NCBI RefSeq assembly: GCF_963675165.1
Contig: NC_087379.1
Span: 6,658,839-6,722,838 of the forward strand
Direction: 5' to 3'
DNA from: Halichondria panicea
Taxonomy: Eukaryota; Porifera; Demospongiae; Suberitida; Halichondriidae
Length of the DNA stretch: 64,000 bases
The notes under the pieces are model-generated. The model saw nothing but the letters and a program-made list of their open reading frames with translations. It did no database searches and had not been told where the DNA came from. The position numbers and the translations under genes are program-made. Positions 17,514-64,000 of the stretch are shown in pieces (the first letter of the stretch is position 1; the number at the start of each line of letters is the position of its first letter).

Positions 17514-17548
<35 letters not shown>

Positions 17549-20214: not shown

Positions 20215-23188
20215 TTAGTACTTGTGCTGTTTCTTGGTGTTGAGGGAATAGTAACCAGACTTGATCCGACATGTGATGAATAGCCAGCTCAGGACAATCA
20301 CTAGTAGAGCCACAATTATTGCTGTGATCAGGAACGTTACTATAATCCCCACGGCAACGTAGGTACCATCCACATAGCCACTGGCTGTGGCACTTTGGGT
20401 ACTGCATAATGGAGGACCTGTGTATGTAGGAGAAATAAGGAGTAAATTATCATTAAGTGGTAAGTGACTTTAAAAGCTTCATCTGTCTTAGCTTGTTTAT
20501 TGCACATTGTAAATCTAACCAGTAGAATTCGATGACGGTGGGGTGATAGGTGGTGGACAGGTAGTAGGGGGCAGTGTAGGGGGCAGTGTAGGGCATGTAG
20601 GGCACGATACTTCAGTAGGTGGTGGGCAGGTTGGGGGAGGCGTTGTAGGAGGGCACGAGACTTCAGTAGGTGGTGGGCAGGTTGGGGGTGACGGTTCTGT
20701 CGTAGGGCACATGGGTGGAGTCATTATAGGGGGGCATGTAGGGCATGTGATCTCAGGAGGACAGGTAGTGGGGGCCATTGTAGGGGGGCATGTGATCTCA
20801 GGAGGACAGGTAGTGGGAGCCATTGTAGGGGGGCACGTGATCTCAGGAGGACAGGTAGTGGGGGCCATTGTAAGGGAGCATGTAGGGCATGTGATCTCAG
20901 GAGGACAGGTAGTGGGAGCCATTGTAGGGGGGCATGTGATCTCAGGAGGACAGGTAGTGGGGGCCATTGTAGGGGGGCACGTGATCTCAGGAGGACAGGT
21001 AGTGGGGGTCATTGTAGGGGGGGTCATTGTAGGGGGGCATGAGCTCCCTGGAATTGGAAAATACAGAATGCAGTGTGTGCATTCATTGCTGTCAATCAGA
21101 CTCACCTGTGTACTGTATCAGACTACTGTACAGTCCAGGGCCAATAGATGTCCTTGCTCGTACCTGAAGAATTTTAGATCTTACATATACGTATAATGGA
21201 TTGTAATGCTTACTGAAACTCGAATGTTACTGCCAAGATTTCTGATATTATCGTCAGTAACAACGTGATAGCTCTCAGATGGCAACTTGTTGACAGTGCG
21301 AGTTAAGGATCCAGAAAACCTTAACTGGTAGACAGTAATAACTCCATTAGGCTCAGCTGGGGGTCCCCACACAACAACTCCTGAGAATACCTGGACATCT
21401 CGTGGGACACTCGGAACTGCAAAGTCAGTCAGTTATTGTAAGTAAGCATACAATATAGTGTTTTGAGAAGAATCAAAAGATAAAGGTTTCCAAACTAATT
21501 CTCTTACCCCCCTCCCCTGTTCTGGTTGGAAGGTCTACTCTCCTTAGAGCTTCGTTCTCAGTATCTTGGTCGCTGACTCCATTGTGAGTGGTCACTCGTA
21601 TGGTGTAGGGTGTGTTGGGACGCAGGTTAGGGACTGTGTAGGAGACTGTGAGTACAGAATTGACATAGTTTCCATTGCTGAGTATGAACGACCCAGTGTT
21701 AGGATCACTGTACTCAATGGAGTAGTAGAAGTCATCTCTTCCGGTGACCTCAGGTCTGGTCCATAAGAGGCTAACACTAGTGGAAGTGATGGTGGTTGTA
21801 AGGAGGTTTCTTACTGGGCCAGGGGGAGCTGTATTGACAAGTGATGACATAATTATAATTATAATTATAGGTATTCCGAATTTGTATAGGTTCAACTTAC
21901 GTGTACAAGTCACTCCAGGTCCTTCATTAGTTTGCTCATCTCTGTAGAATCCATCCAGACAGCTGCAAATTGGAGCACCCTCCACATCCATTGCTGTGTT
22001 TATTGGACAATCTAGACAAGTGCCTTGGTCATCAGTTAGAGAGCGATAGGTTCCAGAAGGGCATTCTATTGTGGAAAATTGCATGCATGAAACAATACTC
22101 AATAGAATACCTTCACATCGATGTGTTCCATCTGCATTCACGATCAGTTTGTACCCAGCATCACAGTCACACCTTACGTTGCGCTCACATCTTTCATCAC
22201 CAGTAGTTCCATCAATGGCACTGAGAGCTCTGAAGGTGAGAGAGGTGGTGGGGTGAGAGTTGGGAGCACAGCAAGCCATGCCCTCGTTTGGTAGAGAGCC
22301 GCTGGGGGCACGAACAAGCTCAGGATAGTTGACCAGTCCATCTTGTCGTTCCTTACAAGGTGTGTAGTAGAAGAAGATTCGGTTAATTTGGCCACAATTT
22401 CCAGAGTCTCTGATGCCAAAATGGAATCCATTGGTTCTCGAGGAGAAGGGAGAAGTAATGGTAAGAGTTCTAGTGTCTGAAACAGTCCCACCACTCCCTG
22501 TCTGATCCAATCGAGATGTTGTCATATCTCCAAACAACGGAGTAGAGAGGTAATTGCTTCTGTCTGTTCGGTCACTCTCTGAGGCAATGCTGTTTGTGTC
22601 ATATCTGTATAGATCAGCAAAGTTATTCACACAGGCATCATTACACTGAGTGAATCTGAAGGAGACATCGAGATAGATCTCTGTTGGTAGACCCCCACCA
22701 AGGGTAGTACTTCCTGGGGGGTATTTGATGTGAGGGGAGAACACCCAGTTGTCTTGAGCTCCTAGTGTATAGGCACACACTCTCAAACCACGCTGACAGA
22801 TACCACCTCGATCCTCCCACTGATCAGCCACTGTCTGCAATGAAGGAAAGGATACTTAATTACATAAATATCGTCAAATTTGTCTCACCGGCACAGCTTC
22901 ATCATTGTCAAACTCTCTGCTGAGGAACACTGGCCCCACCAAGCTCTCGTAGTCATAAGAGTCAAACATCAGCTCCCACTCCGGGGGAAGAACGTGATCA
23001 GGTGAAAATCGGAAACTGGTGTGACATTGGTCAGTCGACGAGGTGATTAGTCGATCCTTTGGTGCACAGTTGTCAACACCCTGGCTGTTAATGCAGTAAC
23101 CATGGATAACTGGTGGTTGACATGTTGGAACCAGTGCAGACACTTGCACCACCAGAGCAGCAGCAACAGCAAGAATCCACAAATTCAT
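20215..23188 (-). CDS. Gene 1: kinase-less Eph-like single-pass membrane receptor, complete
   Basis: Eight exons: 22889-23188, 22111-22834, 21901-22065, 21508-21828, 21214-21416, 21106-21163, 20520-21047 and 20215-20417. Together 2502 nt, 833 residues, with every junction in phase. Signal peptide MNLWILAVAAALVVQVSA. Residues about 68-341 match the Eph ligand-binding domain in order: EWELMFDSYDYESL, QDNWVFSP, FRFTQC, GFHFGIRDSGNCG, FYYTPCKE and CDCDAGY. Next come a Cys-rich GCC2/GCC3 module (342-396), FN3 (397-503), FN3 split over two exons (504-590), and a Cys-Pro-Thr repeat exon (591-766). The last exon has a transmembrane helix (about 787-815) and an 18-residue basic tail containing YYSL, a possible YxxPhi endocytic signal. 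No kinase, SAM or PDZ motif follows; the stop is at 20215. The introns 22066-22110 and 21829-21900 are multiples of three without stops, so their retention would keep the frame. Binding partners are unknown; ephrin-like ligands are only a guess. Confidence 0.85.
20520..21047 (-). repeat. Cys-Pro-Thr-rich tandem repeat exon of gene 1
   Basis: A 528-nt exon (176 codons) made mostly of 45-54-nt units encoding TCPPTMAPTTCPPEI, some with an added CPTC. It lies between FN3 and the transmembrane exon and forms a stalk that is likely O-glycosylated and disulfide-rich. Unit number differs widely between homologous exons in the array (48 to 257 codons). Confidence 0.85.
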
Positions 23189-24694: not shown

Positions 24695-27600
24695 TTAAGC
24701 TATAATGTTTGCACATATTCGGTGAAGGTTACCATCGTTGTTGGGCACAGTACAACAGTACAGTCCAGGGATTGCAGCTTGACCAGTGAATATCTTATTC
24801 TTATTGAGTCGAACCAGTTGAGAATCACGGTTGCGATACAATTCATTATTGAATGCTCTAATACTTAATTCAACACCGTGGGGATCGTAGCATTGTCCGA
24901 TCTTTTGCACTTTGCAGCAATCCTTAATTTCTGTTCGGAAGATGAGAGCTTCATCAGTTTCACCGATATCTTCGAGGGAGATACTACTGCCATTAGCGAA
25001 GGTTTCTCCTCTTAGCATGAACCCAATAGCATCTAAGACAGAAAAATAAGATGATTAAATCTCTAACAATATTTAACGAATACCACAATAAGCCATATAA
25101 ACATACCTTGTTGGCAAGTAGGTGCATTTCCACAACATTGCCCATTAGGTAAACAGGTTCTTCTTGAAGAGTCACTCAGAGTGTAACCAGGGTTACAGGT
25201 GTAGGTGGCCAGACTTCCTACAGCTATTGAAAGAGACAACACTCGCACTCCTCCATTAGCCGGATTGGAAAGTACAGGGCAGGTTACTGGAGGTGGTGCT
25301 TCACCTGTACGTACAGTGTGGAGGGTAACTAGGTCACCAAATGAAAGTATGGACTCTCATACCTGCTACGATGTTGACGTAAACACTTCTTGTCACTCCA
25401 CTTGCATCAGGGATGGCACATCTGTATCTACCCAGTGGAGAGGTCGCACCGTTCCTTCTGTTGAGACCAATAAACTGTTCTCCTCTGTTTCTGTATAAGG
25501 AATTTATGCTGGAGAAACCGACAGCTGTACCATCAGGATAGAAGAACTCTCCCTCATCAGGTGGGTCACAGCACTCAGTGTTGTCAGTCACACACAACAG
25601 AGCGTTATCTCCCTCTCCAATATCAGTGATCATCACAGTGTCTCCATCAGTGTAATTCTTTCCACGCAACATGAAATACACGTCACCTGTAATAGGTACG
25701 ATTAAAGCTACAAGCACAATGTGACATTCCTCACCTTGTTCTGGGGGACATGTTGTTGGGGGTGGTGGGCAGGTTGTGACTGGACAAGGAGTGGACGGTT
25801 CTGTTGGAGCGCACGTAGGTGGAGGTAGTGTAGGGGGGCATGTAGGGCACGTGGGTGGAGGCAGTGTAGGGGGGCACATAGGGCAGGAGACTTCAGTACA
25901 GGGGGTAGGTGGTGGACAGGCAGTAGAGGGAAGTGTAGGAGGGCAGGTTGGGGGAGGTAGTGTAGGGGGGCACGAGACTTCAGTAGGTGGTGGGCAGGTG
26001 GTTGTAGTTACAGTTGGACACATTATCACAGGAGGCATGGTTGATGCTTTAATTTGAATATGGAGTTCATAAACATAAAAACAATGACTATGATATACCT
26101 ATGTTGATGAAAATGCTTCTTGTCACTCCACTTACATCAGGGATGTCACATCTGTATCTACCCAGTGGAGAGGTGGCACCGTTCCTTCTGTTGAGACGAA
26201 TAAACTGTTCTCCTCTGTTCCTGTATAAGGAATTTGTCAGCGAGAAGCCGACAGCTGTACCATCAGGATAGAAGAACTCTCCATCGCCACCTCAGCGACA
26301 GCACTCAGTATTGTCAGTCACACACAACAGAGCGTTATCTTCCTCTCCAATATCAGTGATCAGCAATGTGTCTCCATCAGTGTATGTCCTCCCACTCAAC
26401 ATAAAATGCACATTATCTGTGGGCATAAATTCCACCCTAAAAATAATGCATCACTATATATAAGTCTAACCTAATGGGGTAGGTGTAGGGAAAGTTTGAC
26501 AAGGAGTGGACGGTTCTGTTGTGGGTGGAGGCAGCGTAGGGGGGCACATAGGGCACGAGACTTCAGTACAGGGGGTAGGTGATGGGCAGGTGGTAGGGGA
26601 CATTGTAGGGGGGCATGTAACCTCAGGACAGGGGGTAGCTGGTGTACAGTTTGGAGGGGGTACTGTAGGGGGGCATGTAGGGCACGAGGCTTCGGTACAA
26701 GTTGGGCAGGTGGTTGTAGTTACAGTTGGACAGTCAGTGGGTGTGGGGAGAGTTGGACACGTCATCACAGGAGGCATGGTTGATGCTGTGGAGATTGAAT
26801 AGATTTCATCATAAACAATGACTATGACATACCTATGTTGATGAAGATGCTTCTTGTCACTCCACTTGCATCAGGGATGGTACATCTGTATCTACCCAGT
26901 GGAGAGGTGGCACTGTTTCTTCTGTTGAGACCAATAACTTGTTCTCTTCTGTTCCTGTATATGGAGTTTGATGTGGAGAAGCCGACAGCTCTACCATCAG
27001 GATAGAAGAACTCTCCACGGCCACCTGTGCGGCAGCACTCAGTATTGTCAGTCACACACAACAGAGTGTTATCTTCCTCTCCAATATCAGTGATCAGCAA
27101 TGTGTCTCCATCAGTGTACATCCTCCCACTCAACATGAAATGCACATTATCTGTGGGCATAAATTCCACGCTAAAATAAAATTCACATTACTACGAGAAG
27201 TAAGTCTAACCTAACGTGGTGGGTGTAGTAGGGAAAGTTGGACAAGGAGTGGATGGTTCTGTCGTAGGGCATATAGGTGGAGTCATTGTAGGGGAGCATG
27301 TAGGGCATGTGATCTCAGGAGGACACGTAGTGGGGGCCATTGTAGGTTGAGTTCCTTGGAATTGGAAAGTACAGAAAGCACTATAATTATTCAGACTCAC
27401 CTGTGTACTGTATCAGACTACTGTATGTTCCAGGGCCAGCAGATGTCCTTGCTCGTACCTGAAAATTAAATTCTGCTAGACAGACATATAGAATTCTAGT
27501 GCTTACTAAAACTTGAATATTACTGCCGAGATTTCTGATATTATCGTCAGTAACAACGTGATAGCTCTCAGATGGCAACTTGTTGACAGTGCAAGTGAAG

Positions 27601-29841
27601 GATCCAGAAAACCTCAACTGGTAGCCAGTGATAACTCCATTAGGTTCAGCTGGGGGTCCCCACACAACAACTCCTGAGAATACTTGGACATCTCGTGGGA
27701 CACTTGGAACTGCAAGGTCACGTGAAAGCATATGTAACGATAAATACATTATTAAAAGCTTTCCAACTAGTAAGTAACGTTTCAATTACTTACCCCCCTC
27801 CTCTGTCCTGATTGGGAGGTCCACTCTCCTCAGAGCTTCATTCTCAGTGTCTTGGTCGCTGACTCCATTGTGAGTAGTCACTCGTATGGTGTATGGTGTG
27901 TTGGGATGCAGGTTAGGGACTGTGTAGGAGACTGTGAGTGCAGAATTGACATAGTTTCCATTGCTGAGTATAAACGACCCAGTGTTGTCAGGGTCACTGT
28001 ACACGATGAAGTAATATAAGCCATTTCCGGTAACCTCAGGTCTGGTCCATAAGAGAGTAACACTAGTTAAAGTGGTGGTTGTCACGCGGAGGTTTCTCAC
28101 AGGGTCGCTTAGAGGTGTGCAATCCAATGAAAGGTCCGGTGTGGGTCTCCGGAATCCATCCAAACACTGGCACATTGCAGCACCTTCCACATCCATTACA
28201 GTGTTCCTTGGGCAATCGAGACAAGCTTCATTAGAACTATATCTCCCAGCAGGGCACACTGTAAAAGATCATAAACTCAATTTAATTAGCCAGGCTTGTT
28301 ATTACCTACCTTCACATTCTGTTCTATCTTCATTGAATCCGTACCCAGCATCACACTCACACCTTACGTTGTGTTCGCATCTTCCATCACTGGCACTGTG
28401 AGCTCTGAAGGTGAGAGAGGTGGTGGGGTGAGAGTTGGGAGCACAGCAAGCCATGCCCTCGTTTGGTGGAGAGCCGCTGGGGGCACGAACAAGCTCAGGA
28501 TAGCTGACCAGTCCATCTTGTCGTTCCTTACAAGGTGTGTAGTAGAAGTAGATTCGGTTAATTTGGCCCCAATTTCCAGAGTCTCTGATGCCAAAATGGA
28601 ATCCATAGGTTCTCGAGGAGGGAGAAGCAATGGTAAGAGTTCTAGTCTCTGAAACAGTCCCACTGCTCCCTGTCTGATCCAATCGAGATGTTGTCATCTC
28701 TCCAAACAACGGAGTGGAGAGGTAATTGCTTCTGTCTGTTCTGTCACTCTCCGAGGCAATGCTGTTTGTGTCATATCTGTATAGATCAGCAAAGTTATTT
28801 ACACAGGCACCATTACACTGAGTGAATCTGAAGGAGACGTTGAAGTAACCACGCTGACAGATACCACCTCGATCCTCCCACTGATCAGCCACTGCCTGCA
28901 ATGAAGGAAGGGATATAATTAATTATTATACCGTATAGCGGGTAAGTTTCGTGGGGTAAAAAATTCGTTCAACTCGAGAAACGGCGGTTTTCGTGAGTAA
29001 AATTTTGGTTTAGTCTCATTGCCTGCACTGCATTCCTACGTTCCGGTAAGCCACGCCTACGTTAAAATTTCGTGGAGGTCAGCTTGCCCATGAAAATAAC
29101 GAATACTTACCCCACGAAAATTAGCTGCTATACAGTAGCGGGTAATTTTTTTTGTGGGGTAAAAATATTCCTTATTTTTGTGGTCAAGCTGCATGACCTA
29201 CACGCAAAATTTTCCTCCAAAAACGTAGGGGTGGCATACCGGAATGCGTAATGAAGCCAAACGAATTTTTACTGGCAAAATCACCGTATTCGAGTTAAAC
29301 GAATTTTTTTACGCCCTGAAAATTACCCGCTAAAACAAAATACTCGTTATTTTCGTGGGAAAGCTGACCTCCATAAAATTTTAACGTAGGCGTGGCTTAC
29401 CGGAACGTATGAATGCAGTGCAAGCAATGAAACTTAACGAAATTTTTACTCCTAAAAACCACTGTTTTCGAGTTGAACGAATTTTTACCCAACAAAAATT
29501 ACCCGCTATACGGTATATGGTACATAAATGTTTCTACATATTGTCTCACCAACACATCTCCATCATTGTCAAACTCTCTGCTGAGAAACACTGGCCCCAC
29601 TAAGCTCTCGTAGTCATAAGAGTCAAACATCAGCTCCCACTCTGGGGGAAGGATCAGGTGAAAATCGGAAACTGGTTCGACATTGGTCAGTTGACGAGGT
29701 GACCAATCGATCCTCTGGTGCACAGTTGTCAACACCCTGGCTAATGCAGTAACCATGGGGATCTGGTGATTGACATGTTGGAACCAGTGCAGACACTTGC
29801 ACCACCAGAGCAGCAGCAACAGCAAGAATCCACAAATTCAT
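24695..29841 (-). pseudogene. Gene 2: single-module Eph-like gene with several lesions
   Basis: Exons: 29550-29841 (signal peptide and start of the ligand-binding domain), 28310-28895, 27794-28258 (Cys-rich module and first FN3 in one exon), 27507-27709, 27401-27458, 27211-27354 (CPT), 26833-27150 (Ig), 26471-26785 (CPT), 26099-26416 (Ig), 25735-26046 (CPT), 25363-25686 (Ig), 25107-25304 (CCP) and 24695-25032 (terminal Ig, stop TAA). Lesions: exon 1 lacks 5 nt near 29652 (other copies read GATGTGATC, this one GATC) and goes out of frame. The ligand-binding exon is 138 nt shorter than in gene 1 and has lost the segment with QDNWVFSP. The Ig exon at 26099-26416 has an in-frame TGA at 26292-26294. 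The CCP has Cys in place of its conserved Trp (NGQCCGNAPTC). All other junctions are phase-consistent. The gene is probably non-functional unless damaged exons are skipped; the stop-bearing Ig exon is phase 1-1 and could be. Confidence 0.78.
28931..29513. mobile_element. Inverted-repeat MITE in intron 1 of gene 2
   Basis: Left end CCGTATAGCGGGTAA and right end TTACCCGCTATACGG, flanked by TA. Internally it contains several alternating copies of CGAAAATT/TTTCGTGGGG and CTTACCGGAACGTA-type segments in both orientations, so it may be two nested or tandem elements. No coding content. Confidence 0.75.
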
Positions 29842-30149
29842 CACTATTATTTAGCTCAGCTAGATCTATTTATAGTTATATTCCTAATGCAAAATATGCC
29901 AGCTAGCTATAGTCTGATCACACCTATATACTAATAAAATGGGAATATATAGAGAATACAAGTTAATAGTCTACTGGCCCTGGCCTCAGGTATGTAAAGC
30001 CATGTGACAATGGGACTGTCCCTATAGATTAAGTACTAATGAAAACAATGGTTATACAAATTCACCATTGAGGTGATAAAATAATGAGACATGTAAACAA
30101 GGCAAAATATATAAAAATACTACTTTTCCTTAATCTACTCAGTTCAGTT
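29842..30149. promoter_or_regulatory. Short conserved spacer between gene 3 stop and gene 2 start
   Basis: Only 308 nt separate the gene 3 stop from the gene 2 ATG. The stretch is closely paralogous to 48860-49200 and 60979-61266, sharing CCATGTGACAATGGGACTGTC and AATTCACCATTGAGGTGATAA. It must combine a 3' processing signal and a promoter (inference). The conservation across three spacers marks it as a duplicated unit boundary. Confidence 0.6.
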
Positions 30150-33100
30150 TCACAATACAATATTAACACACACTTTGTCAGTTACTACTACGCCAGTTTC
30201 AGTCTCTGAGCTGGGTACATCACAACAATAGAGTCCTGGCAGAGCTGCATTACCCGTGTAAGACTGGCGATTCAACCGAACAAGTTGACGTCCTCTTTTT
30301 CGATAAAGCTGATTTCTCGTGGTTCGTATATTAATCTGTCCTCCATCGGGTCCGTAACATTCTCCAATCCTCTCTGCTCGGCAACAATCAGTGAAATCAG
30401 TTCGAAAAATCAATCCATTATCGCCTTCACCAATATCACTTAGTAGTACACTTGAGCCGTTTGAAAACAATGTTCCTTTTAGTTCAAATGTGGCTGGAGA
30501 ATTATGTAAGAGTCATAGTAATATAATGATATGAGCAGCATACGAAGATAGAGCTATGTAGCAAGCAAACAACTTATTATGCAATACTACAAACGATCCG
30601 TACATGTACATACATGTATACATGCATGTACGATAAACAAATTGAGTGGGCTGGTATGCATTATTTCCTCACATTCACAGCTAGGGGAAGGATTGGTCCA
30701 TGCAGCGGAGAGTTGACACACCCTCTCTCTGGGTCCAGAGATTATGAAGCCAGGCTCACACGAGTAGCTAGCCACAGAACCAACAGAATTGTTCGACTTT
30801 GACACGGCTCCATTCTCTAGTGACTCCAGCTCATCACACTCAAAACCTACAGTGGGAATTAGAACACTGTTGAGTCTCCCATGAACAGTATCATATGGCT
30901 AGGGATACTACTAAATTCTGCACCTTAATTAACTAACCAGTATAATTCAAGGATGGTGCGGCAGAAGGAGGGGGGCATGTGACAGTCGGATAGTCTCTGG
31001 GTGTGGGGGTAGGAGGGCATGTGACTGTCGGACAGTCTCTGGGTGTGGGCGTAGGGGGGCATGTGACAATCGGACACTCCCTGGGTGTGGGGGTAGGAGG
31101 ACATGTGACAATCGGACAGTCCCTGGGTGTGGGCGTAGGGGGGCATGTGACAATCGGACAGTCCCTGGGTGTGGGGGTAGGGGGGCATGTGACAGTCGGA
31201 CAGTCTATGGGCGTGGGGGAAGGGGGAATTGTGAACTCAGCGCATTCGGAGGGAGGACAGGTTGAACATTCACCAACTGTATAATTATATATAATAATAT
31301 AGGTGTCATGTTATCTGTGGATATAGTATAATTATACTAACCTTGGTGACCAATATTGATGAATACGCTTGTTGTCACTCCATTTGCATCAGGGATGGCA
31401 CATCTGTATCTACCTAGTGGAAAGGTGGCGTTGTTCCTTCTGTTGAGACTAATAAACTGCTCTCCTCTGTTCTTGTATAAGGAATTTGAGGTGGAGAAGC
31501 CGACAGCTGTACCATCAGGATAGAAGAACTCTCCATTGCCCCCTGTGCGGCAGCACTCAGTGTTGTCAGTCACACACAACAGAGCATTATCTCCCTCTCC
31601 AATATCAGTGATCATCACAATGTCTCCGTCAGTGTACTTTCTCCGACGGAGACTGAAATATACATCATCTGCATGTGGGGTATATATGCATAAAACTATA
31701 CTAAGTCTTGTATAAATTTCACCTTGTTCTGGAGGAGATGTGGTGGGCGTAGGGCAAGCTATGGAGGGTACTGTGGGGGGGTGGGGTATAGAGATGATTG
31801 ATAAGACTGTGTGCAATAATGCGAGCACAAAGGATGTATTCACAGAAGCCTCATTTGTATTATATACCGTATAGCATACAATTTTGGCAGGTGAAAAATC
31901 TTCGCTATTGGCTTGAGAGCCCTCAGAAGATTTTCGTGCGTTGTATAATATTCGCGTTTCAATGCCAGGAAACCCACCCACCCACTAAGAGCTTTGCATG
32001 TGAAAAACCGTTGAGTTTTATCCCAGTTTAAATTTTCTGGTTAACTGCTATATATCTTTAAAAAATTTATACCTCACGAAAATTTCCCGCTGGCGTGATG
32101 CTACGACTAATTTATGTCCCAAGGGCATATAATTATCAATGCATAAATAAAATACACCTTTACTCAAAATGCTCTATTAAATTAGTGTGGTTTGCAATGT
32201 TAGCCCCATACTGGGGGATTTGACCTGGCTTTGCGTAGTAGAGACTGCTTGTATAACCTGTTTGGATGTGTGCAACTGCTTGCTTAGGGCTCAAAAACCC
32301 CCTGTTGACTGGGGGATTTGAACACCTTCCTCCACCAGGGGGAATTTGATCTGAGGTATGGTAAAATCCCCATGCTAGCCCTCCCCCTCCCGGGGGGGGG
32401 GCGACACATTGATAGGTGCATAAACCGTACTATTGACTTCTACAATTAAGACTCTGATTTTAATATTTAATGTCAATACATATATCAGTCGCGGCTGTTA
32501 TTCGAAAACAAGTCCCTGTGCAATTACGTCGTCCATGACAACGTGCAAATACTGGTCCAGATGTGATGCGTGATATTATTAATGCACTACTTCACTGTAC
32601 AAATTCCAGTGCACTAAATAGTACATCATACGATTATTATGTATAACTCTCCTTCATTGCATTGGTCGGTGCATGTGCTGCATAACAATACATGCACATA
32701 CGTACCGGGTATAGCAACAGCATTGATGGATTATGCTGTTGCATGAACTCACCTGTGTACTGTATTAAAGCACTAGATGGTCCAAAACGAGATGTATTTG
32801 CTCGCACCTGAAGTTAACAAAAAACTGCAATATACATACATGTAATTATAGGATTGAATTTCTTACTGAAACTCGAATATTACTGCCAAGATTTCTGATA
32901 TTATCGTCAGTAACAACATGGTAGTTCTCACACGGCAACTTGTTGACAGTGTGAGGAGAGGAAGATCCAGAAAACCTCAACTGGTAGCCAGTAATAACTC
33001 CATTAGGCTCAGCTGGGGGTCTCCACACAACAACTCCTGAGAATACTTGAACATCTCGTGGGACACTTGGAGCTAGAAAATAGTCGTAATTATATAGTGT

Positions 33101-51664: not shown

Positions 51665-53329
51665 CTGGTATATGGGTAGCCTCGATCCTAGGCCGCATGG
51701 TATCGACTGCTTGCGCATGCGCTAACCATCCGCCGGTATCTGGCGGATCCGGATAACAACGTTTATGGTCAGTAAAACAGTGATGAAACAATGAACGGAA
51801 GTGGATTGAAGGAAGTAGATAGAAAGTTCGATTGAAGGTTTCTAGCCCATCTGATAGCATTCTAATAGTTACCTTTAGCCTGCCATGTTAACAAAAGACT
51901 CACAGCCAGCAACAGTGTGGATGACAATCGTCTGAACGAAGTAAAAGCTGACAAATAGCCTATGGACAGGCCACGCCCATCCAATACTAACTACTACTGC
52001 TACCGTGACTGACTCTATCAGACTGTCTCTAGCTATAGCTATAGCTCTAGCTCTGTGAATGACTTTCAATACTTTATCACAGATATTATTTTTCTCATAA
52101 TAAATACAAGGAAATTATACGGGAAAAATATTAAATAATTTGCGCATGCGCAAGCAGTCAGTAGCAGGCTTTCTCTTCAGGGGAGGCCAGTGAAGGAGGC
52201 TAGTATATGGGAGAAAGATGTAGTTGAGCTGTTACTTATTTTAGAATAACAAAATTAATGCAGAAATAATTTATTAGCCTGTATAGTATACGTGATTGTA
52301 GTAGAGTAAAGTATCAATTATCAGACAGAACGTATAATCAGACAGCTGCCGAATGAGAACGGATGTGCGAAACAAGCTGATATTTTTCACCCGACAATAG
52401 GCCTAGCCACAAAACCTCCAAAAATAATAGTCTAAATAAAAACGAGCAAAAGCAAAAGCTCAAACCTGCACGTTGGCCTAGATGTACACGCGGCTTTGAC
52501 TCGAGGCTGTAGACTCACTATATAACCTATAAACGCCAAGGGTTTGCATTTCAGTGCTCTAGTTAATAGCTTCTCAATAATCAAGAAAGGCCAGTTAAAA
52601 AAACTGTTACTGTCTGTAATTCCTTCCGGAAGACCAGCAAATATTGTTGATGAGACTCCCCTGTCTAAATATAAAATTTGCTACTAGATCTACTACAGTA
52701 AAGTATCGATTATCAGACAGAACGTATAATTAGACAGTTGCCGGATGAGAACGAATGGGCAAAACATGCAGATTTTCCCCCCGACCGATAATTACAAAAT
52801 GTGGTTGTGTCAGATAAATTGATTAATCAGACGAAATAAACGCTATAAGTCCCCTACAACATAAAATATTATCACAAAAGCTACATCTCTATCCTACGCA
52901 TGACAGCAGCAGTTACAAAACCACTAACATGTAGTTTTTTTGTTTTGTGGCATGTTGTAAGGGAGACTTTTAGCTACCAAATCACCTTAAACTTGTGGCT
53001 CTGCCTCTTCATTAATTCGTAGTGTCTGATATTACGTTATTTCATCAGACACGCCCACATGTTGGTACATAATTATAGCATGCTTATTTTAGAATCGACA
53101 TCGAAGCTTTAATCAAAATCTGCCAAATTTATAACTATACTATCTTATTGTGTTGAGGGTTGAGGCTATCCATGCATGGTATAAACACAGTGCTATCGCA
53201 TCCAGTTGAGTAGACTCAGAATACACGGACAGACAGACTGACCGACTACTATAACCCGTGGCGCCGCGGTGCGTCTCGGGTTAATAATAATAGAAGCCAT
53301 GCATGCATGCATGCCAACATCACAACCAC
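51665..53329. other. Gene-free stretch with pogo-like repeat pair
   Basis: No exon is supported. Two direct copies of an approximately 90-bp segment start AGTAAAGTATCAATTATCAG (52305) and AGTAAAGTATCGATTATCAG (52698). Both continue through AACGTATAAT and GATGAGAACG, and the style is like pogo/Tigger ends. TGTCTGATATTACG and ATCAGACACGCCC lie near 53023-53057. The motif TTGCGCATGCGC recurs at 51710 and 52140. Confidence 0.55.
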
Positions 53330-56300
53330 CTTGACAAGTTGGTGCATTTCCACTCCATATTCCAGATATTAGACAAAAACGTGTAGAGGAGCCAATCAGA
53401 TTATTGCCAGTGTTACATGTGTATATGGCTCTGCCCCCAGGGGCACCTGAAGTTATAGTCACAGTTCCATCCGATGGTTGAGATAGTTCAGGGCATAGTA
53501 CTGCATATGGTCGTTGTAGGTGCATATACATGGCAATCGATTTTGATTGATAGAACTCACCGCATGTTGGTGCAGTTTCACTCCACAATCCATTGGTCTG
53601 ACAGGTACGTGTAGAGGACCCACTCAGAGTGTAGCCAGTGTTACAGGTATAAGTAGCAATCCCATAGGAAGATCTTGAAGACACAAGCACCCTTCCATTT
53701 GTGGGACTAGTCAGACTAGGACACTCCCGAACCAGTACTGCAGCAATGGACAAATTAAAAGCATATCTAACAACACAAGAGCTGACTCAAACAACACTCC
53801 AAGATGAGTCTCCACTACACTCTATCACTATATAATTATATACCGTATATCACTAAAATGTTTTCCGAGCATCAAATATAATTGATTATGCAAACTTTGC
53901 GAGTGTTGATCAAATCACAACAACGCAAAACCTATGACACACGATCCTTGCTAGAGAACGCGATCGCAAAGGGTCAATTTAATGTTCTGCTGGTTTGGCT
54001 TATTATGCCTCAGTGTGCACGCGCAAGCGAGGTATACTGCATGTGTTTGTGTGTGTATGTAGACTGCTACAGTGTTTCACCTACACATTAAAGAACAGGG
54101 CGCCCCGCCCTGTTTGAGTAACTAATTGGATTTGAGAATCTGTGTTAAAGCTTAATTTAACTCGACACTCAGGAAGCTATTCACTTAATCTACTGAAAAG
54201 TTCACCACTGTTCCTAGCTGGCAGCTCTAGCTGTCTGCATGGGAGGCCTTTTTGAACTGCCTCTTTGATAAACTTATAGCTTTATGCTATGTAGCTTTAA
54301 CACCTCCACTGAGGCATCAGCACCCGCATTGCTTTCATTCGTAAACGAGTTTTTCACTTGCAAAGATTCTAGTAATATGATATATAATTATAGAGAGGAC
54401 AACAACAAATGCATATTTGATTGTAACTAACCTGTGAAACAGTTCAATGATGGCAACAGTAGGACTGTCCCTGGGAGTGCAGTAGGGTATGTAACCTTAG
54501 GACAGGGGGTACCTGGAGGACAGGTTGTGGGGGGAATTGTAGGGGGCATTGTAGGGGGGCAAGTTGGAGGTTCAGGACAAGACTTTCCTGGAATTGGAAA
54601 AACTGAAATGAAGTATGCATGTGCATGCACTCAATCAGACTCACCTGTGTACTGTATCGGACTACTGTACGGTCCAGAGCCAGCAGATGTACTTGCTCGT
54701 ACCTGAAATAATTGAAGAATAAATACGTATAACTATAATAATAGTATTGAATTGCTTACTAAAACTTGAATGGTGTTACTGCCAAGATTGATATTGTCTT
54801 CAGTAACAACGTGATGGCTCTCAGATGGCAACTTGTTGATAGTACGAGTGAAGGAACCAGAAAACCTCAACTGGTAGCCAGTGATAACTCCATTAGGCTC
54901 AGCTGGGGGTCCCCACACAACAACTCCTGAGAGTATTTGGACATCTCGTGGGACACTTGGAACTACAGAGTGATTCAGTTAAAACTGATGTTGTTTCATG
55001 TTCTAAATTTCCTACCTTTCTCCATCGTTTTGATGAACCGATAAGCTATCCTCAGAGCTTCATTCTCATTGTCTTGGTCGCTGACTCCATTGTGAGTGGT
55101 CACTCGTATGGTGTATGGTGTGTTGGGACGCAGGTTAGGGACTGTGTAGGAGACTGTGAGTGCAGAATTGACATAGTTTCCATTGCTGAGTATGAACAAC
55201 CGAAGCATGTCAGGATCAATGTACTCAATGGAGTAGTGGAAGTCATCTCTTCCAGTGACTTCAGGTCTGGTCCATGAGAGGCTAACACTAGTGGAAGTGA
55301 TGGTGGTTGTATGGAGGTTTCTTACAGGGCTAGGGGGAGCTATATATTGACAAGTGATGAAATGTAGGAATTAAATTTTTTAGGTTCAACTTACGTATAC
55401 AATCTACTTCCGGGCCTTCGTTAGTTTGCTCATCTCTAAAGAATCCATTTAGACAGCTGCAAATTGCAGCACCATCCATATCCGTTAATGTATTCATTGG
55501 GCAATTGAGACAAGCTCCTTGGTCATCAGTCAGAGAGCGAAACGTTCCAGCAGGGCAAACTGCAAAAATATAAACAATTATAAGCTATAAGGCCTGCTAT
55601 TACCTTGACATCCTGTTCCAGTTGCATTCAGTCTGTACCCAGCATCACACTCACACCTTACGTTGCGCTCACATCCTTCATCACCAGTAGTTCCATCAGT
55701 GGCACTGTGAGCTCTGAAGGTGAGAGAGGTGGTGGGGTGAGAGTTGGGAGCACAGCAAGCCATGCCCTCGTTTGGTAGAGAGCTGCTGGGGGGACGAACA
55801 AGCTCAGGATAGTTGGCCAGTCCATCTTGTCGTTCCTTACAAGGTGTGTAGTAGAAGTAGATTCGGTTAATTTGGCCACAATTTCCAGAGTCTCTGATGC
55901 CAAAATGGAATCCATTGGTTCTCAAAGAGGAGGGAGAAGTAATGGTAAGAGTTCTAGTATCTGAAACAGTTCCACTGCTCCCTGTCTGATCCAATCGAGA
56001 TGTTGTCATCTCTGTTCCTGTTCCAAGCAATGGAGTGGAGAGGTAATTGTTTCTCTCTGTTCGGACACTCTCTGAGGCAATGCTGTTGGTGTCATATCTA
56101 AATAGATCAGCAAAGTTATTCACACAGGCACCAACACACTGAGTGAATCTGAAGGAGACATCGAGATAGATCTCTGTTGGTAGACCCCCACCAAGGGTAG
56201 TACTCCCTGGGGGGTATTTGATGTGAGGGGAGAACACCCAGTTGTCTTGAGATCCCAATGTATGGGCACACACAAACAAACCACGCTGACAGATACCACC

Positions 56301-59300
56301 TCGATCCTCCCACTGATCAGCCTGCAATGAAGGAAAAGATAACTAATTAATATTGCTACATTTTGTCTCACCGATACATCTCCATCATTGTCAAACTCTC
56401 TGCTGAGGAACACTGGCCCCACCAAGCTCTCGTAGTCATAAGAGTCAAACATCAGCTCCCACTCTGGGGGAAAGATGTGATCCCTCATAAATCGGAAGCT
56501 GGTTCGACATTGGTCAGTGGACGAGGTGACCAATCGATCCTTTGGTGCACAGTTGTCAACACCCTGGCTAATGCAGTAACCATGGGGATCTGGTTGCATG
56601 ATTGTATTAAGCTACATACACATGAATCGAAGTATGAAAATCACTTACTTTCTACTACTGTTGGGCACGTTGTTGGGGATGGAGGGAAGGTTGTGACTGG
56701 ACAAGGAGTGGCCGGTTCTGTTGTAGGGCATGTGGGTGGAGGTAGTGTAGGGGGGCATGTAGGGCATGTGATATCAGGAGGACAGGTAGTGGGGGCCATT
56801 GTAGGGGAGCATGTAGGGCATGTGATCTCAGGAGGACACGTAGTGGGGGCCATTGTAGCTATAGGGGAGCATGTAGGGCATGTGATCTCAAGACAGGTAG
56901 TGGGGGCCATTGTAGGGGAGCATGTAGGACATGTGATCTCAGGAGGACAGGTAGTGGGGGCCATTGTAGCTATAGGGGAGCATGTAGGGCATGTGATCTC
57001 AGGAGGACACGTAGTGGGGGCCATTGTAGCCATAGGGGAGCATGTAGGGCATGTGATCTCAGGAGGACACGTAGTGGGGGCCATTGTAGGGGGGCATGTA
57101 GGGCATGTGATCTCAGGACAGGTAGTGGGGGCCATTGTAGGGGAGCATGTAGGGCATGTGATCTCAGGAGGACATGTAGTGGGGGCCATTGTAGGGGGGC
57201 ATGTAATCTCAGGAGGACACGTAGTGGGGGCCATTGTAGGGGGGCATGTAGGACATGTGATCTCAGGAGGACATGTAGTGGGGGCCATTGTAGGGGGGCA
57301 TGTGATCTCAGGAGGACACGTAGTGGGGGCCATTGTAGGGGAGCATGTAGGGCATGTGATCTCAGGAGGACATGTAGTGGGGGCCATTGTAGAAGGGCAT
57401 GGCGTGGGTAAGAGGTCACCTGGAATTAATTGGAAGCATAAAGTACGAGCATATATTTACATGTACATGGGACTCACCTGTGTACTGTATTGGACTACTG
57501 TACGGTCCATACCCAGTAGATGTACTTGCTCGTACCTGCATGAGAATACTGCCAGTACAATATATAATATATCAGTATAGAATGCAATGTCTAGGATTGG
57601 CTAGGGGAAACACCAAAAAGCGTGGAAACAAGAAATCTGGCCAATGCCGCATGTATAGGTCCATCTACCCCACCACTTCATGCATGCATACTTATTGGAT
57701 GAACTGTGCCATTGTATTATGTCATAAATGGTGCAATCTGCATGATATGGATTGGTTACTGAGATGTCCCTTATTACACTTAGAGAGACCTCAGCATATA
57801 GGTATTCTACGGAGGGGTCCATTATAATGTACTTGCTTATATGTTGAAATCATAGTAACGATGATGCAGTGCATATAGGTCTCGGCCAGTATTGAAGGCA
57901 CACCCATAAGGCGTCCAATTAGGTATGCATAAACTGCATTTATTTTTAGTCTTCGCATTCTGCAGCATGGGCGTAACTACATCAATGAGGCAGAGGAGGC
58001 CCTTGCAATTGCCTCCTGAACTATTGAACTTCAAGTGTCATATGACTCACCTCACTAGCTTTTAATAGCTCTGGTTAGCTAACTTCTGGATAACTATCTA
58101 ACTAGAATGAGCAGAAAATGAGCTCTATCACTGTCTTGTTGATGAAGAAAAGAGAAGAAGAGCAAGTAAATAGCAGTTTACTGCCATTTGCATGCACTTC
58201 TACACGATAATTAGTGGGTGTGGTTTCCGGTTAAACATTTTGCGGGGTCTTGCACAAGCGCTCTTGTTGCCTCCTTCCCGTAAAATTTCTAGTTACGCCC
58301 CTGTGTAGTGCAGCTTGACAACTTTTATTTTACTCCTGTATTAAACTACTAAGTATAGAGAATAGCAACTTTCTATTAGCAGTTTTTTTCCTATATGCAT
58401 GATTCTCAACGCAAGAGACGGAAACGGCCCTCAATGTGAGTTTTTTATATGTTGACTAGCGAGAGCAAAGCTTTAACGCTGCTTGAGGCTTGTAAAAACT
58501 AATAGCCTAGCTTGCTTTTTTATAGCACCAACGATCACACATAATCTCATGGAGACCCAAGTTAGTCTTCCATTCTTCTTTACAATGTTGAACTCAGCCT
58601 ATAACTAGAAACATCATCACAATGACCTCCCCTGTGTAGGGAATTACATCACCTACCATTATTCATTGCTACGCGTTGTCAGCCAGAGCAATAAGCACAT
58701 TACAAACAAGGAGTGTGGTTAAACGATAGTGAGTCCGCAGTACTGTGCATAGTAAGACGCTTCATCTCCTCATGTGCTCCTGGTTATACCAAAGGCGTAT
58801 AAAACACCAAAATTCAAAGCGTGTGCAAATGAAAGGAATGTGCATGAAAAAATAACCACTTCAAACGTCTTTATGCATCCGCTCACGCTTTTAATTTTGG
58901 CTGCTACGTGCCTACTAGATAGTTTTTTCATGCACCCTTGATTATATTACATTATAATTATAGCCAGTTTTCAGATGTGGAGCTGCAGAGTATGAACATG
59001 AGTCAAAATAAATATTGCTATAACACCTGGCCAATCTAAATTTCTTACTTGAATATTACTGGTGAGATTTCTGATATTATCGTCAGTAACAACGTGGTAG
59101 CTCTCAGATGGCAACTTGTTTACAGTGCGATTGAAGGATCCAGAAAACCTCAACTGGTAGCCAGTAATAACTCCATTAGGCTCAGCTGGGGGTCCCCACA
59201 CAACAACTCCTGAGAATACTTGAACATCTTGTGGGACACTTGGAACTGCAAAGTCATTTAGTTAATAGAAGCAGTATTCCATAGTTCTGAACTGCTTACT

Positions 59301-60978
59301 TCCTTCTAATGTCCTGATTGGAAGGTCCACTCTCCTCAGAGCTTCATTTTCAGTGTCTTGGTCGCTGACTCCATTGTGAGTGGTCACTCGTATGGTGTAT
59401 GGTGTGTTGGGACGCAGGTTAGGGACTGTGTAGGAGACTGTGAGTGTGGAATTGACATAGTTTCCATTGCTGAGTATGAACGATCCAGTGTTAGGATCAC
59501 TGTACTCAATGGAGTAGTAGAAGTCATCTCTTCCAGTGACCGCAGGTCTGGTCCATGAGAGGCTAACACTATTGTTAGTGATGGTGGTTGTACGGAGGTT
59601 TCTTACAGAGCCAGGGGGAGCTGTATTGACAAGTAATGACATCTAGGTACTCTAAATGTTTACGTTAAACTTACACGTGCAATTCACTCCAGGGCCTTCA
59701 TTAGTTTCCTCATCTCTAAAGAATCCATTTAGACAGCTGCAAATTGCAGCACCGTCCACATCCATTGCTGTGTTCATTGGACAATCTAGACAAGTGCGTT
59801 GGTCATCATTCAGAGAGCGATAGGTTCCAGCAGAGCAAACTGTAAAAAGTTAAAGGAAACATTATTATATAAACTCAATTAATTTGCTAAGGCCTGTCAT
59901 TACCTTCACAACCTGTTCCAGTTGCATTCAGTCTGTACCCAGCATCACACTCACACCTTACGTTGCGCTCACATCCTTCATCACCAGTAGTTCCATCAGT
60001 GGCACTGTGAGCTCTGAAGGTAAGAGAGGTGGTAGGGTGAGAGTTGGGAGCACAGCAAGCCATGCCCTCGTTTGGTGGAGAGCCGCTGGGGGCACGAACA
60101 AGCTCAGGATAGTTGACCAGTCCATCTTGTCGTTCCTTACAAGGTGTGTAGTAGAAGTAGATTCGGTTAATTTGGCCACAATTTCCAGAGTCTCTGATGC
60201 CAAAATGGAATCCATTGGTTCTCGAGGAGGAGGGAGAAGTAATGTAAAGAGTTCTGGTCTCTAAAACAGTCCCACTGCGACCTGTCTGATCCAATCGAGA
60301 TGTTGTCATCTCTGTTCCTGTTCCAAACAACGAAGTGAGGTAATTGTTTCTGTCTGTTCGGACACTCTCTGAGGCAATGCTGTTTGTGTCATATCTGTAT
60401 AGATCTGAAAAGTTATTCACACAGAGACTATTACACTGAGTGAATCTGAAGGAGACATCGAGATAGATCTCTGTTGGTAGACCCCCACCAAGGGTAGTAC
60501 TTCCTGGGGGGTATTTGATGTGAGGGGAGAACAACCAGTTGTCTTGAGCTCCCAATGTATAGGCACACACTCTCAAACCACGCTGACAGATACCACCTCG
60601 ATCCTCCCACTGATTAGCCACTGTCTGCAATGAAGGAAAGGATACTTAATTACATAAATATCGTCAAATTTGTCTCACCGGCACAGCTTCATCATTGTCA
60701 AACTCTCTGCTGAGGAACACTGGTCCCACCAAGCTCTCGTAGTCATAAGAGTCAAACAACAGCTCCCACTCTGGGGGAAGAACGTGATCAGGTGAAAATC
60801 GGAAACTGGTTCGACATTGGTCAGTCAACGAGGTGATTCGTCGATCCTCTGGTGCACAGTTGTCAACACCCTGGCTAATGCAGTAACCATGGGGATCTGA
60901 TGGTTGACATGTTGGAACCAGTGCAGACACTTGAACCACCAGAGCAGCAGAAACAGCAAGAATCCACAAATAATTCAT
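53330..60978 (-). CDS. Gene 5: two chained Eph-like ectodomains followed by CCP domains (3' end unresolved)
   Basis: Module A exons: 60679-60978 (ATG, signal peptide), 59904-60624, 59675-59839, 59300-59620, 59049-59245, 57478-57535, 56649-57419 (257-codon CPT repeat). Module B: 56372-56589 (no signal peptide), 55604-56321, 55395-55559, 55016-55339, 54760-54962, 54645-54702, 54432-54587 (CPT). Then CCP exons 53561-53737 (NGLWSETAPTCG) and 53330-53500 (SGIWSGNAPTCQ). The reading frame is open and every junction fits up to 53330, about 1574 residues. The next CCP candidate (51499-51664) is out of phase, so the true C terminus is uncertain. The gene may end in the decayed unit at 49-51 kb or have been truncated. 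The donor after the last CCP is GTGGTTG, weaker than the others. The domain order repeats that of gene 3. Confidence 0.75.
56649..57419 (-). repeat. Expanded Cys-Pro-Thr repeat exon of gene 5
   Basis: A 771-nt exon of alternating 45- and 54-nt units encoding TCPPTMAPTTCPPEI with or without CPTC. A few units carry an extra ATMAP triplet block (GTAGCTATA or GTAGCCATA on the plus strand). It links the first and second Eph modules. Neighbouring units are almost identical at DNA level, so length is probably variable between alleles. Long antisense open frames here are by-products of the repeat. Confidence 0.88.
57590..59048. other. Enlarged intron between the two halves of an FN3 domain in gene 5
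   Basis: The same intron is about 40-60 nt in most other units. It contains a TIR element with GGGCGTAACTA at 57969 and TAGTTACGCCC ending at 58300, whose interior has GCCTCCTGAACTATTGAA. The rest has no supported gene. Confidence 0.6.
57969..58300. mobile_element. MITE with GGGCGTAACTA ends
   Basis: Perfect 11-bp inverted ends. Near the left end it has GAGGCAGAGGAGGCCCTTGC and near the right end GTTGCCTCCTTCCCG, a partial inward mirror. No open reading frame of note. Target duplication not identified. Confidence 0.6.
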
Positions 60979-61266
60979 TATCTTATTTAGCTCAGCTATT
61001 ATATTCCCAATGCAAAATATGCCAGCTATGCTTTAGATCACACCTACTAATAAAAATGGGAAGAGAGATCTAGATACAAGTTAATACTGGCCCTGGCCTC
61101 AGGTATGTAAAGCCATGTGACAATGGGACTGTCCCAAGTAGACTACCGTGCAAGTAATGAAAACAATGGTTATACAAATTCACCATTGAGGTGATAAAAT
61201 AATGAGACATGTAAACAAGGCAAAAATACAAAAATACTACTTTTCCTTAATCTACTCAGTTCAGTT
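60979..61266. promoter_or_regulatory. Conserved spacer between gene 6 stop and gene 5 start
   Basis: Less than 300 nt lie between the TGA of the upstream gene and the ATG of gene 5. Sequence is near-identical in blocks to 29842-30149 (CTGGCCCTGGCCTCAGGTAT, AATTCACCATTGAGG). Likely promoter of gene 5 and 3' signals of gene 6. Confidence 0.6.
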
Positions 61267-64000
61267 TCACAATACAATATTAACACACACTTTGTCAGTT
61301 ACTACTACGCCAGTTTCAGTCTCTGAGCTGGGTACATCACAACAATAGAGTCCTGGCAGAGCTGCTTTCCCAGTAGAGCTATTAGAGTAAGGCTGACGAT
61401 TCAATCGAATAACTTTATCTCCTCTGTTTCGATATATCTCATCTCCCGTGGCTCGCACAAAAATTTTCAACTGATCAGGTCCGTTACAATTTCCAATCCT
61501 CCTTGCTTGGCAACAATCAGTTAAACCAGCCCGAAATATTAATCCATTATCGTCTTCACCGATATCATTCAGTTGTATACTAGAGCCGTTTGGGAACAAG
61601 TGACCATTTAGTTCAAAGGTGAGTGGGGAGGAACATTGGTCAGGGTTGATGCATTTCGACTGTGTTTCATCTAAGACTGTTCCCAGAGGACAGGAGCATC
61701 CAGAGCGACAGAGGGCTATGCAGAGTGGGGCGGGGTCTTTGCAGGTGGATGGACAAGCCGAGGCACACGTACTGAACACTTCACCTTCATTGTCACACGC
61801 AGGGGCTGCAGGAGGGGATCGAGGAGGATTTGATTAATGCACAACACTGAAAGTACCCATTACACAAGTTACATGTTATATAATTATAATGATCAAATGC
61901 ATACAAGACAAGATACAGTAGGCCATAAGTGGTTGGCGCACAAATAGTAGTCATGCAGTCATAAGGTCCTGTGGTAGATTGATACGAACGAGAGGTATGC
62001 ATATATTAGCTGCATGATATTGACTCTGTTGATACATAGTTGATGTACTAACTCACGAATGCATGTTGGTTGTTGCCCAGTCCACTCTCCATTGATACAT
62101 TGTCTCTGTGTTCTGCCGACCAGCTCGTAGGGTGCGTTACACTCAAACACTGCCAGTGAGCCCAGCGTCACCCCAGTCACCTCCATCTTACCATTCTCAA
62201 AACCATCCTCAAATGGTTCACAATCCTTAACTGTAAGTATAAAACGTCGCACAACAGGTAAATGTAAGTATTACTAAGCTAATAATGCTAGAGTTATGGC
62301 CACTTAGTTCCAAAAACAGCTTGGGCCAATTTCAGCAGAAAAACACCAACAGGATTTTAAACTTGTATATGTAGCCTGTACGCCAAAATGAAATGAACTC
62401 ATAGACTCGAAAGTAATCATTGATGCAGTGAGATTAATTATGTAACCAAGCCCACATGCACGATCAGATTGAAAGCAAAGAATGCATGAAACAGTTCCAC
62501 TCACTGCAGGTCGGCTCTCTCCCTGCCCAGCGTCCATTAGGTCTACACTCTCTGAAGTTAGAGCCAGATAGTGAGTAGCCATTGTTACACATGTACAGGG
62601 CAAAGGAACCATCATTCATGTACTGTATAGCTCCATTCTCCGGTACTGAAAGCTTTTCACATAATACGCCTGTATGTGTATAAGGTTATGGATCAGTTCA
62701 TGCATGAGCAAGAAAGAGGATCAATACACACTCTGTATTATATACTATGTGAATGAATTGTTGTGGCATTATACCTTCACAGCTTGGGGTCGACTCGCTC
62801 CATGATGCAGCAGAGAGTTGACACACCCTCTCTCGGGGTCCAGAGATCATGAAGCCAGGCTCACACGAGTATCTAGCCACAGAACCAACAGAATTGCTCG
62901 GCTTTGACACGACTCCATTCTCTAGTGGCTCCAGCTCATCACACTCAAAACCTACAGTGGGATGTTGAGTATCCACACTTAAACAAATCCTCTCCAACGT
63001 AAGTGTACGATCATGATATATGGAGAGCTAACTTCTGCACACATAATACTAACCTGATGGTGCGACAGTAGGAGGGGGGCATGTCACCTCAGGACAGGTG
63101 GTAGTTGGAGGACAGATTGTGGGGGGCATTGTAGGGGGGCACATAGGGCACTCGGTGCAGGTTACAGGAGGGAGGACGGTAGGAGGAGGTGGGCAAGTAG
63201 GTGTGGGACACTCTGTGGATGGTGGACATTCGGTGCAGGTCACGGTAGGGGGGCACACTGGTGGAAGTAGCGTGGGACAGGAGGGACAGGTGGGAGGCGA
63301 AGGGGAGGAAGGGGCTAGTGGAGGTAACAAAGAAGAGCATCAATTAACTTCAGACGATAATCAATATTAAAAGACAACACTGTGAATTCACTAGTACGTA
63401 TACATTAATTTATATACATGGGTTGCATCATTATGTTTCTTTTCTAACAGTCGTACCTTGAACACACTCTGGTTCCAGTCCAGTCCAAGTACCGTCCATC
63501 TGACAGAATCTCAGACGGTCGCCGGTGACAAAGTACCCCTCACTGCAAGTGTACTCTGCTACTGAGTTGAGCCTGGTACCATCTCTAAGAGACACACGTC
63601 CGTTGGGGGGACTGGACAGTGCACCACAGGTAATGGCTGTACAAGAAATGCAAGGAATTAAATGGCTAGCATAGTTTGAATTAAGGTTTAAACTTCAGAT
63701 GTACAACATCCAAATTCGATTATAGAATACCATCTGAACAGGTTTCTTGTAAGCTCTCAGAAAATTATGAATTTGGATCACCAGAACTCTAGATATACAG
63801 AGTCGACTATACAATCATGCACTGAGCATTTAGTTGTATCATACTTACGTTCACAAGTTGGTACGTCTCCACTCCAAGTCTCGTCCGGCCGACACACTCG
63901 CCTCGAATCACCCACCAGACTGAATCCGTTATCACAGAAGTACCTTGCACTACCGCCCACAAGGGAGGACATGAGCACAACCTCTCCACTGAGGGGAGAA
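61267..64000 (-). CDS. Gene 6: 3' part with CCP, CPT, TIL and Ig domains (5' end outside window)
   Basis: Exons from the right edge: 63849-64000 or beyond (CCP with ETWSGDVPTCE), 63457-63636 (CCP, GTWTGLEPECVQ), 63054-63314 (87-codon CPT exon), 62775-62951 (CCP, SWSESTPSCE), 62505-62669 (CCP, GRWAGREPTC), 62057-62230 (CCP, GEWTGQQPTC), and 61267-61805. The last exon combines a TIL-type Cys-rich domain (CASACPSTCKDPAPLC, CRSGCSCPLGTVLDE) with the terminal Ig-like domain, stop TGA at 61267. Borders are GT-AG and phase 1-1. TIL domains are known from protease inhibitors and von Willebrand-type proteins; inhibitor activity is not implied. The family resemblance of its last exon to genes 3 and 5 suggests that an Eph-like module lies upstream, outside the window. 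No transmembrane segment is visible. Confidence 0.8.

Follow-up and report, generated by a model that had tools for sequence, protein, structure and literature searches.

The window analysed here is a stretch of 64,000 nucleotides from the genome of the sponge Halichondria panicea (131 Mb, 39 contigs), located at C3:6658839-6722838 (NC_087379.1). From ~61 kb down to 20.2 kb its minus strand carries a repeated exon set in which exon 1 specifies a signal peptide and the start of an Eph-type ligand-binding domain (LBD), exon 2 (~240 codons) the main part of the LBD and the Cys-rich end, exon 3 a GCC2/3 module, exon 4 an FN3 domain, and exons 5-6 a second FN3. A single scheme of splice phases (0, 1, 1, 1, 0, 1) fits all intact copies. 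These exons are followed by 3' modules, namely Thr/Pro/Cys stalks, Ig-like, sushi and TIL domains and, in one case, a TM exon. The array extends ~110 kb past the window, with sushi runs. The genes and gene remnants in the window are:

20215..23188, minus: g6; signal peptide, Eph LBD, Cys-rich/GCC2-3, FN3, FN3, Thr/Pro/Cys stalk, TM, 17-residue tail
20215..20417, minus: last exon of g6; TM helix and short tail ending ...SGYYSLNTKKQHKY, then stop
24701..29849, minus: g5; one LBD, stalk/Ig-like pairs, sushi, terminal Ig-like
30150..39845, minus: g4; signal peptide, three Eph ectodomain units, Ig-like, stalk, sushi, terminal Ig-like, stop
30153-30488, minus: terminal Ig-like domain of g4
41827..44251, minus: decayed copy; frame-broken LBD exon, two GCC2/3 exons, FN3 exons, Ig-like exon with stop
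44836..48859, minus: g2; one LBD, stalk, frame-broken Ig-like exon, sushi, terminal Ig-like, stop
49215..60978, minus: g1; two Eph ectodomain modules, sushi exons, LBD fragment, TIL, Ig-like exon with stops
61267..64000, minus: 3' end of another gene of the array; sushi exons, stalk, TIL (37.9 bits), terminal Ig-like, stop

The eight LBD main exons, one of them internally deleted, and two decayed fragments are:

60624-59905, minus: LBD main exon
56321-55605, minus: LBD main exon
48507-47785, minus: LBD main exon
38785..39501, minus: representative LBD main exon, g4 unit 1, phase 0 to 1
37225-36476, minus: LBD main exon
34752-34048, minus: LBD main exon
28895-28311, minus: LBD main exon of g5, internally deleted
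22834-22112, minus: LBD main exon
44251-43647, minus: decayed LBD fragment, frame-broken
51001-50647, minus: decayed LBD fragment

A sorting nexin gene (17398-19974, plus; Pfam PXA, RGS, PX and Nexin_C) adjoins the 3' end of the array, and at 14828-16146 (minus) two overlapping frames match branch 2 of the histidine phosphatase superfamily (Pfam).

The g6 model comprises eight exons with an open frame of 833 aa, and all seven introns are GT-AG. Its stop codon (TAA, 20217-20215) was read from the sequence and the TM and tail boundaries were set by manual reading; the product is predicted to be membrane-anchored and to lack a kinase. The g4 model has 26 exons (7,053 nt; 2,350 aa) with no internal stop, and its predicted product is secreted. 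Its three complete units are linked by in-frame stalk-to-exon-1 splices and, since the inner units have no signal peptide and start at a phase-1 acceptor, they are modules and not separate genes. The same acceptor is found in g1, whose 3' half is partly decayed and whose model is incomplete. The two g1 ectodomain modules are probably joined via a long Thr/Pro/Cys exon (57419-56649, minus). This exon encodes 256 residues of near-exact Thr/Pro/Cys repeats (about TMAPTTCPPEITCP) and is a candidate length-variable stalk. Gene g2 is open (854 aa) solely when the model omits the broken Ig-like exon. With a frame break in exon 1, a deletion in the LBD exon and a stop within one Ig-like exon, g5 is a probable pseudogene. 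From their order and strand, the exons at 61267..64000 would belong to a divergent LBD ~2 kb past the window edge.

The locus had been described, in a sequence-only reading, as a tandem array of Eph-like ectodomain genes with about ten copies of the LBD exon. The tandem arrangement, with every copy in the window on the minus strand, and the copy number both hold. The assumption of one copy per gene does not, as there are three LBD units in one gene and probably two in another. Similarly, the order LBD, GCC2/3, FN3 was correctly read while the stalk, Ig-like, sushi, TIL and TM exons were overlooked; it is the identification of these 3' ends that settles the nature of the products, predicted to be secreted or membrane-anchored.

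Canonical Eph receptors are membrane tyrosine kinases with a single ligand-binding domain and one fixed layout, and the Eph LBD is a galactose-binding-like jelly roll. The profile comparison proposed in the sequence-only reading (EphR_LBD, GCC2_GCC3, fn3) gave significant Pfam matches for all three domains on one joined unit: Ephrin_lbd 31.6 bits (cut-off 27), Ephrin_rec_like 26.7 bits (cut-off 23.1) and fn3 64.1 bits (cut-off 25). In g4 Ephrin_lbd is matched in three stretches, Ephrin_rec_like in three, fn3 in five and Sushi in one. PF01404, which marks membership of the Eph receptor family, thus scores 31.6 bits in a single unit and 83.5 bits (cut-off 27) over the three g4 units, and the succession LBD, Cys-rich, GCC2/3, FN3, FN3 is the Eph order. 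Against PDB sequences, residues 167-587 of the g6 ectodomain are colinear with EphB2 (7s7k; E=2.6e-29), and the best 10 of the 40 sequences matched are all Eph chains. With the LBD region alone, phmmer places Eph chains at just E 0.53-0.74, below two unrelated chains; Eph identity is therefore argued from the Pfam profile together with the whole-ectodomain alignment. Judged on these matches the ectodomain is Eph-homologous, as had been proposed.

Read by eye, the introns flanking the LBD exon agree in phase with those of this genome's kinase-bearing Eph gene and sit at almost identical positions. In an alignment (A1) of the seven open LBD exons of the window, the cysteines aligned with C70-C188 and C105-C115 (numbering from PMC6485061) and the Q-x-N-W residues are invariant; part of the disulphide cysteines is absent from the broken g5 and from a divergent LBD at 66 kb. 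An AlphaFold2 model of the LBD main exon alone, made with the seven near-identical window paralogs as alignment, reached a pLDDT of 32.5 and was not used.

The kinase-bearing Eph gene lies on the same contig, ~0.34 Mb from the array (C3:6.304-6.318 Mb), and has LBD, GCC2/3, FN3, EphA2_TM (37.5 bits), kinase and SAM exons, the last scoring 51.5 bits with Pfam SAM_1. By comparison, no tyrosine kinase was detected by tblastn in the 214 kb made up of the 64-kb window and 150 kb beyond it (L011-L025). Two unrelated tyrosine-kinase domains gave a best E of 0.23, and as a control the same two recovered the kinase exons at 6.304-6.318 Mb with E down to 1.9e-14. The genome's own Eph kinase exons gave a best E of 0.043 over the 214 kb, again not significant, and the SAM exon of the kinase Eph a non-significant 0.098; as these Eph-specific probes were cut from the kinase Eph, finding them there again does not amount to an independent control, and the SAM search is without one. 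The sequence-only reading, which saw no kinase or SAM exon in 44 kb, agrees with these searches, as none was detected over the whole 214 kb. Kinase-probe matches near 198-199 kb resemble, on manual reading, a serine/threonine CDK-like kinase. As background only, 129 of 1,749 candidates were scored in a genome-wide kinase search, and a catalytic-loop pattern gave 138 matches genome-wide with none on C3 among the matches listed; this pattern overlooks the kinase Eph, whose catalytic loop is split by an intron.

Twelve terminal-type Ig-like matches with >38% identity occur in the 214 kb, and ten of them reach the domain end (two partial ones are uncounted); a stop follows within 0-2 codons in all ten, one of which, at 49 kb, is itself broken. 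The products of genes ending in this exon look secreted. A TM helix, as in the Eph family, is present in g6 and apparently in p1, the first plus-strand gene beyond the window, and absent from g4 and the genes ending in the Ig-like exon. Nine gene ends have another gene after them on the same strand. In eight cases the distance to the next signal-peptide exon is 0.3-2.4 kb; the remaining end (44.8 kb) is followed by a 5 kb gap holding a decayed copy. The ends themselves, either a stop after the Ig-like exon or a TM helix and a short tail, speak against these genes being spliced to distant kinase exons, the outcome that had been named as contrary to a kinase-less family.

The terminal domain itself has no Pfam match in any of eight members, nothing better than E 0.74 among PDB sequences, and a model (pLDDT 60.3) with no Foldseek match at E<=0.001. 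The label Ig-like derives from a Y-x-C motif and a C-terminal hairpin and is not established. Matches to it number 145 in the genome, ~110 of them in C4:0.09-4.1 Mb, where tyrosine-kinase catalytic loops are clustered as well (C4:2.51-2.77 Mb).

The array head recurs outside the window in plus-strand genes at 123-176 kb (window numbering), in most of which long sushi runs and the terminal Ig-like domain come after it. Gene p1 apparently ends in a TM exon instead of the Ig-like one, and p4 has a stop within its LBD exon. At C3 ~6726-6732 kb (67.9-73.4 kb in window numbering) lies a gene whose divergent Eph LBD scores 28.3 bits with Pfam. Its Cys-rich stretches match no Pfam family, and it has a TM exon whose tail contains tyrosine; a Calx-beta reading of this gene was dropped for want of Pfam support.

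Genome-wide there are 26 Pfam LBD matches (24 above cut-off), and an array LBD protein used as probe finds 28 places, three of them partial. Counting the divergent copies at 66 kb and 72 kb, ~30 LBD exons or fragments were found in all, and a kinase was located behind one. The 12 Pfam matches outside the array comprise one with a kinase, nine with a TM exon only, and two with neither (C3:303-308 kb, where a short downstream stretch was examined). The nine dispersed TM-bearing genes (L026-L030, L037, L039, L040) are on C14, C3 (two genes at 5.30 Mb), C6, C2, C3:8.37 Mb, C10, C1 and C11. No kinase match at E <0.04 was found within 3.6 to 8 kb downstream of them, the best being E 0.049 (in L027, where the matching stretch contains stops) and E 0.12 (13 residues at the far end of L026); the TM match of L037 reaches just E 0.003 and its LBD is only 45% identical. 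NPSY occurs in the tails of five of the nine and a similar tyrosine motif in three more, and the L026 and L030 tails end in DYEVV-like tyrosine motifs.

In a tree of 25 LBD rows, whose bootstrap is not fully settled, the 12 LBDs of the array group together with support of 98/98. The LBD of the kinase Eph is unresolved among short-branched dispersed LBDs, eight of the nine dispersed copies lying on short branches beside it. The tree left out p4, g5, fragments and the first LBD of L038, and the long branches of the 66 kb and 72 kb LBDs, L037 and L038 are unreliable. Searches elsewhere are uninformative on other sponges: among 7,994 candidates scored in a protein collection none reached E<=0.001, and no animal Eph appeared either in a collection seemingly without animals, while 44 pattern matches in prokaryote contigs and 94 in viral contigs included no relatives.

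Pairwise dS among 13 array LBD exons is 0.06-0.19 with a mean dN/dS of ~0.66 (13 of 14 exons; p4 was dropped for its internal stop), values which fit recent duplication or conversion under moderate constraint. Pooled over 12 exons (g5 omitted as well), pN/pS is 0.66 for the LBD as a whole. By region it is 0.64 for the first part, 0.44 and 0.82 for the loop-rich middle, 0.24 for the core block GFHFG..CKER and 1.02 for the last part, this final value being a ratio of two low rates. No stretch is clearly >1 in these pooled values, and positive selection on the LBD was not found.

The array shares with the Eph receptor tyrosine kinases (EphB2, EphA4, EphA2 and the kinase Eph of this genome) the signal peptide, LBD, Cys-rich region with GCC2/3 and two FN3 domains, as well as the conserved LBD cysteines and the introns of phase 0 and phase 1 on either side of the LBD exon. 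It differs from them in that kinase and SAM are undetected, several LBD units occur per chain, stalk, Ig-like, sushi and TIL modules are added, and the products are predicted to be secreted or to have just a 17-residue tail.

Krishnan et al. 2019 (PMC6485061) report 100 sponge Ephs, 15 of them full-length, together with sponge ephrins, and describe some sponge, cnidarian and ctenophore Eph architectures without a tyrosine kinase that could act in adhesion rather than signalling; missing domains are partly ascribed to partial gene models. Like the array products these are LBD proteins with no tyrosine-kinase domain, and the sections of that paper available to us make no mention of arrays, multi-LBD chains, or sushi, Ig-like or TIL fusions. 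With kinase-less sponge Ephs in print since 2019, the sequence-only reading went too far in proposing an undescribed system. The same applies to its term sponge-specific, given that our survey covers one genome and that kinase-less Ephs are mentioned for cnidarians and ctenophores too. Kinase-dead and truncated Ephs and sponge ephrins are discussed, in the part of the article available to us, by Arcas et al. 2019 (PMC6993872). Vertebrate kinase-truncated splice forms and the kinase-dead EphA10 and EphB6 resemble the array in having the ectodomain without kinase activity; as presented there, they are isoforms or dead kinases of ordinary genes, whereas the array consists of separate kinase-less genes. 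The SRCR-sushi proteins of a sponge (PMC8242945, available sections) are likewise modular sushi-repeat chains, the array being set apart by its Eph ectodomain head. No such array is described in the available sections of PMC8242945 and PMC9798719, or in the titles and abstract openings of open-licence literature on secreted, sushi-bearing, immune or allorecognition sponge Ephs.

We favour, with moderate confidence, the explanation that the array encodes multivalent recognition or adhesion proteins of Eph type that act independently of a kinase, some of them soluble and others tethered; a recognition or adhesion role had also been suggested in the sequence-only reading. Eph-receptor-derived proteins would have lost the kinase and then divided into secreted and membrane-tethered forms. 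The LBDs may bind a cell-surface partner, be it an ephrin, a cupredoxin-like relative or another surface ligand; the secreted multi-LBD chains could cross-link or mask it as agglutinins or decoys, and the tethered copies may serve as adhesion receptors or co-receptors. Both forms would tune cell contact, adhesion or recognition with no kinase activity of their own, beside the kinase-bearing Eph. Counted against this explanation are the weak constraint on the LBD (dN/dS ~0.66) with no diversifying signal, the broken copies, the phmmer result for the LBD region alone, the low-pLDDT model, which did not confirm the LBD fold, and an ephrin-domain search of this genome that gave no match; this last point is weak, as the search had no positive control and ephrins are known in other sponges (PMC6485061).

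A possible though less probable role is innate-immune or microbe recognition, in which the Eph LBD would act like a lectin at the head of a secreted, complement-like chain of sushi, Ig-like and TIL modules, with no link to ephrins. Complement regulators are sushi-rich secreted recognition proteins. Sushi modules are common to them and the array, for which binding of complement components is only putative. The long sushi runs and Ig-like tails of the plus-strand half would suit such a role, as would the recent duplication under weak constraint, the search without positive control that found no ephrin, and the concentration of Ig-like matches in one 4 Mb stretch of C4. It sits less well with the retention of the whole Eph ectodomain, not the LBD alone, or with the LBD exons, on which diversifying selection was not found.

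We are doubtful that secreted multivalent chains and tethered partners form a distinct recognition system, with the Eph module as a kinase-independent extracellular code for self/non-self, cell-type sorting or symbionts. Structural proteins of the extracellular matrix or mucus, a sticky modular matrix in which the LBD no longer needs to bind a ligand, seem similarly unlikely. The Thr/Pro/Cys-rich repeats of up to 256 residues per exon, the modular secreted chains and the weak overall constraint are in keeping with a matrix; the pN/pS of 0.24 in the block GFHFG..CKER, the preserved cysteines and Q-x-N-W residues of the LBD, and the existence of membrane-tethered copies are not.

That the array is mostly a decaying pseudogene remnant of Eph duplication appears very improbable. 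Damage is plain in g5, in the two decayed LBD fragments (44 kb, 51 kb), in an Ig-like exon of g2, in the final Ig-like exon of g1 and in the p4 LBD exon. Set against this, g4 is open across all 26 exons and g6 across eight, and with ~14 nonsense changes expected in g4 at an assumed 5% neutral divergence, none is present. Ordinary Eph receptors with kinase exons supplied by long-range or trans splicing are scarcely credible: nothing was found in favour, the kinase Eph lying on the same contig, ~0.34 Mb away, and the stops in the last exons, the closely following signal-peptide exons and the 214 kb in which no kinase exon was detected all speak against them.

Under the favoured explanation of kinase-independent recognition or adhesion proteins, what this genome offers is an Eph ectodomain that has been duplicated, concatenated, recombined with sushi and Ig-like modules and, by prediction, secreted, with a kinase located behind just one LBD. 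As far as can be judged from sequence, this suggests that the Eph ectodomain can exist apart from kinase signalling in an apparently early-branching animal lineage. Kinase-less sponge Ephs, which in the earlier survey were not always separable from partial transcript models, now have complete gene models, and with these the idea of a role in adhesion or recognition becomes directly testable.
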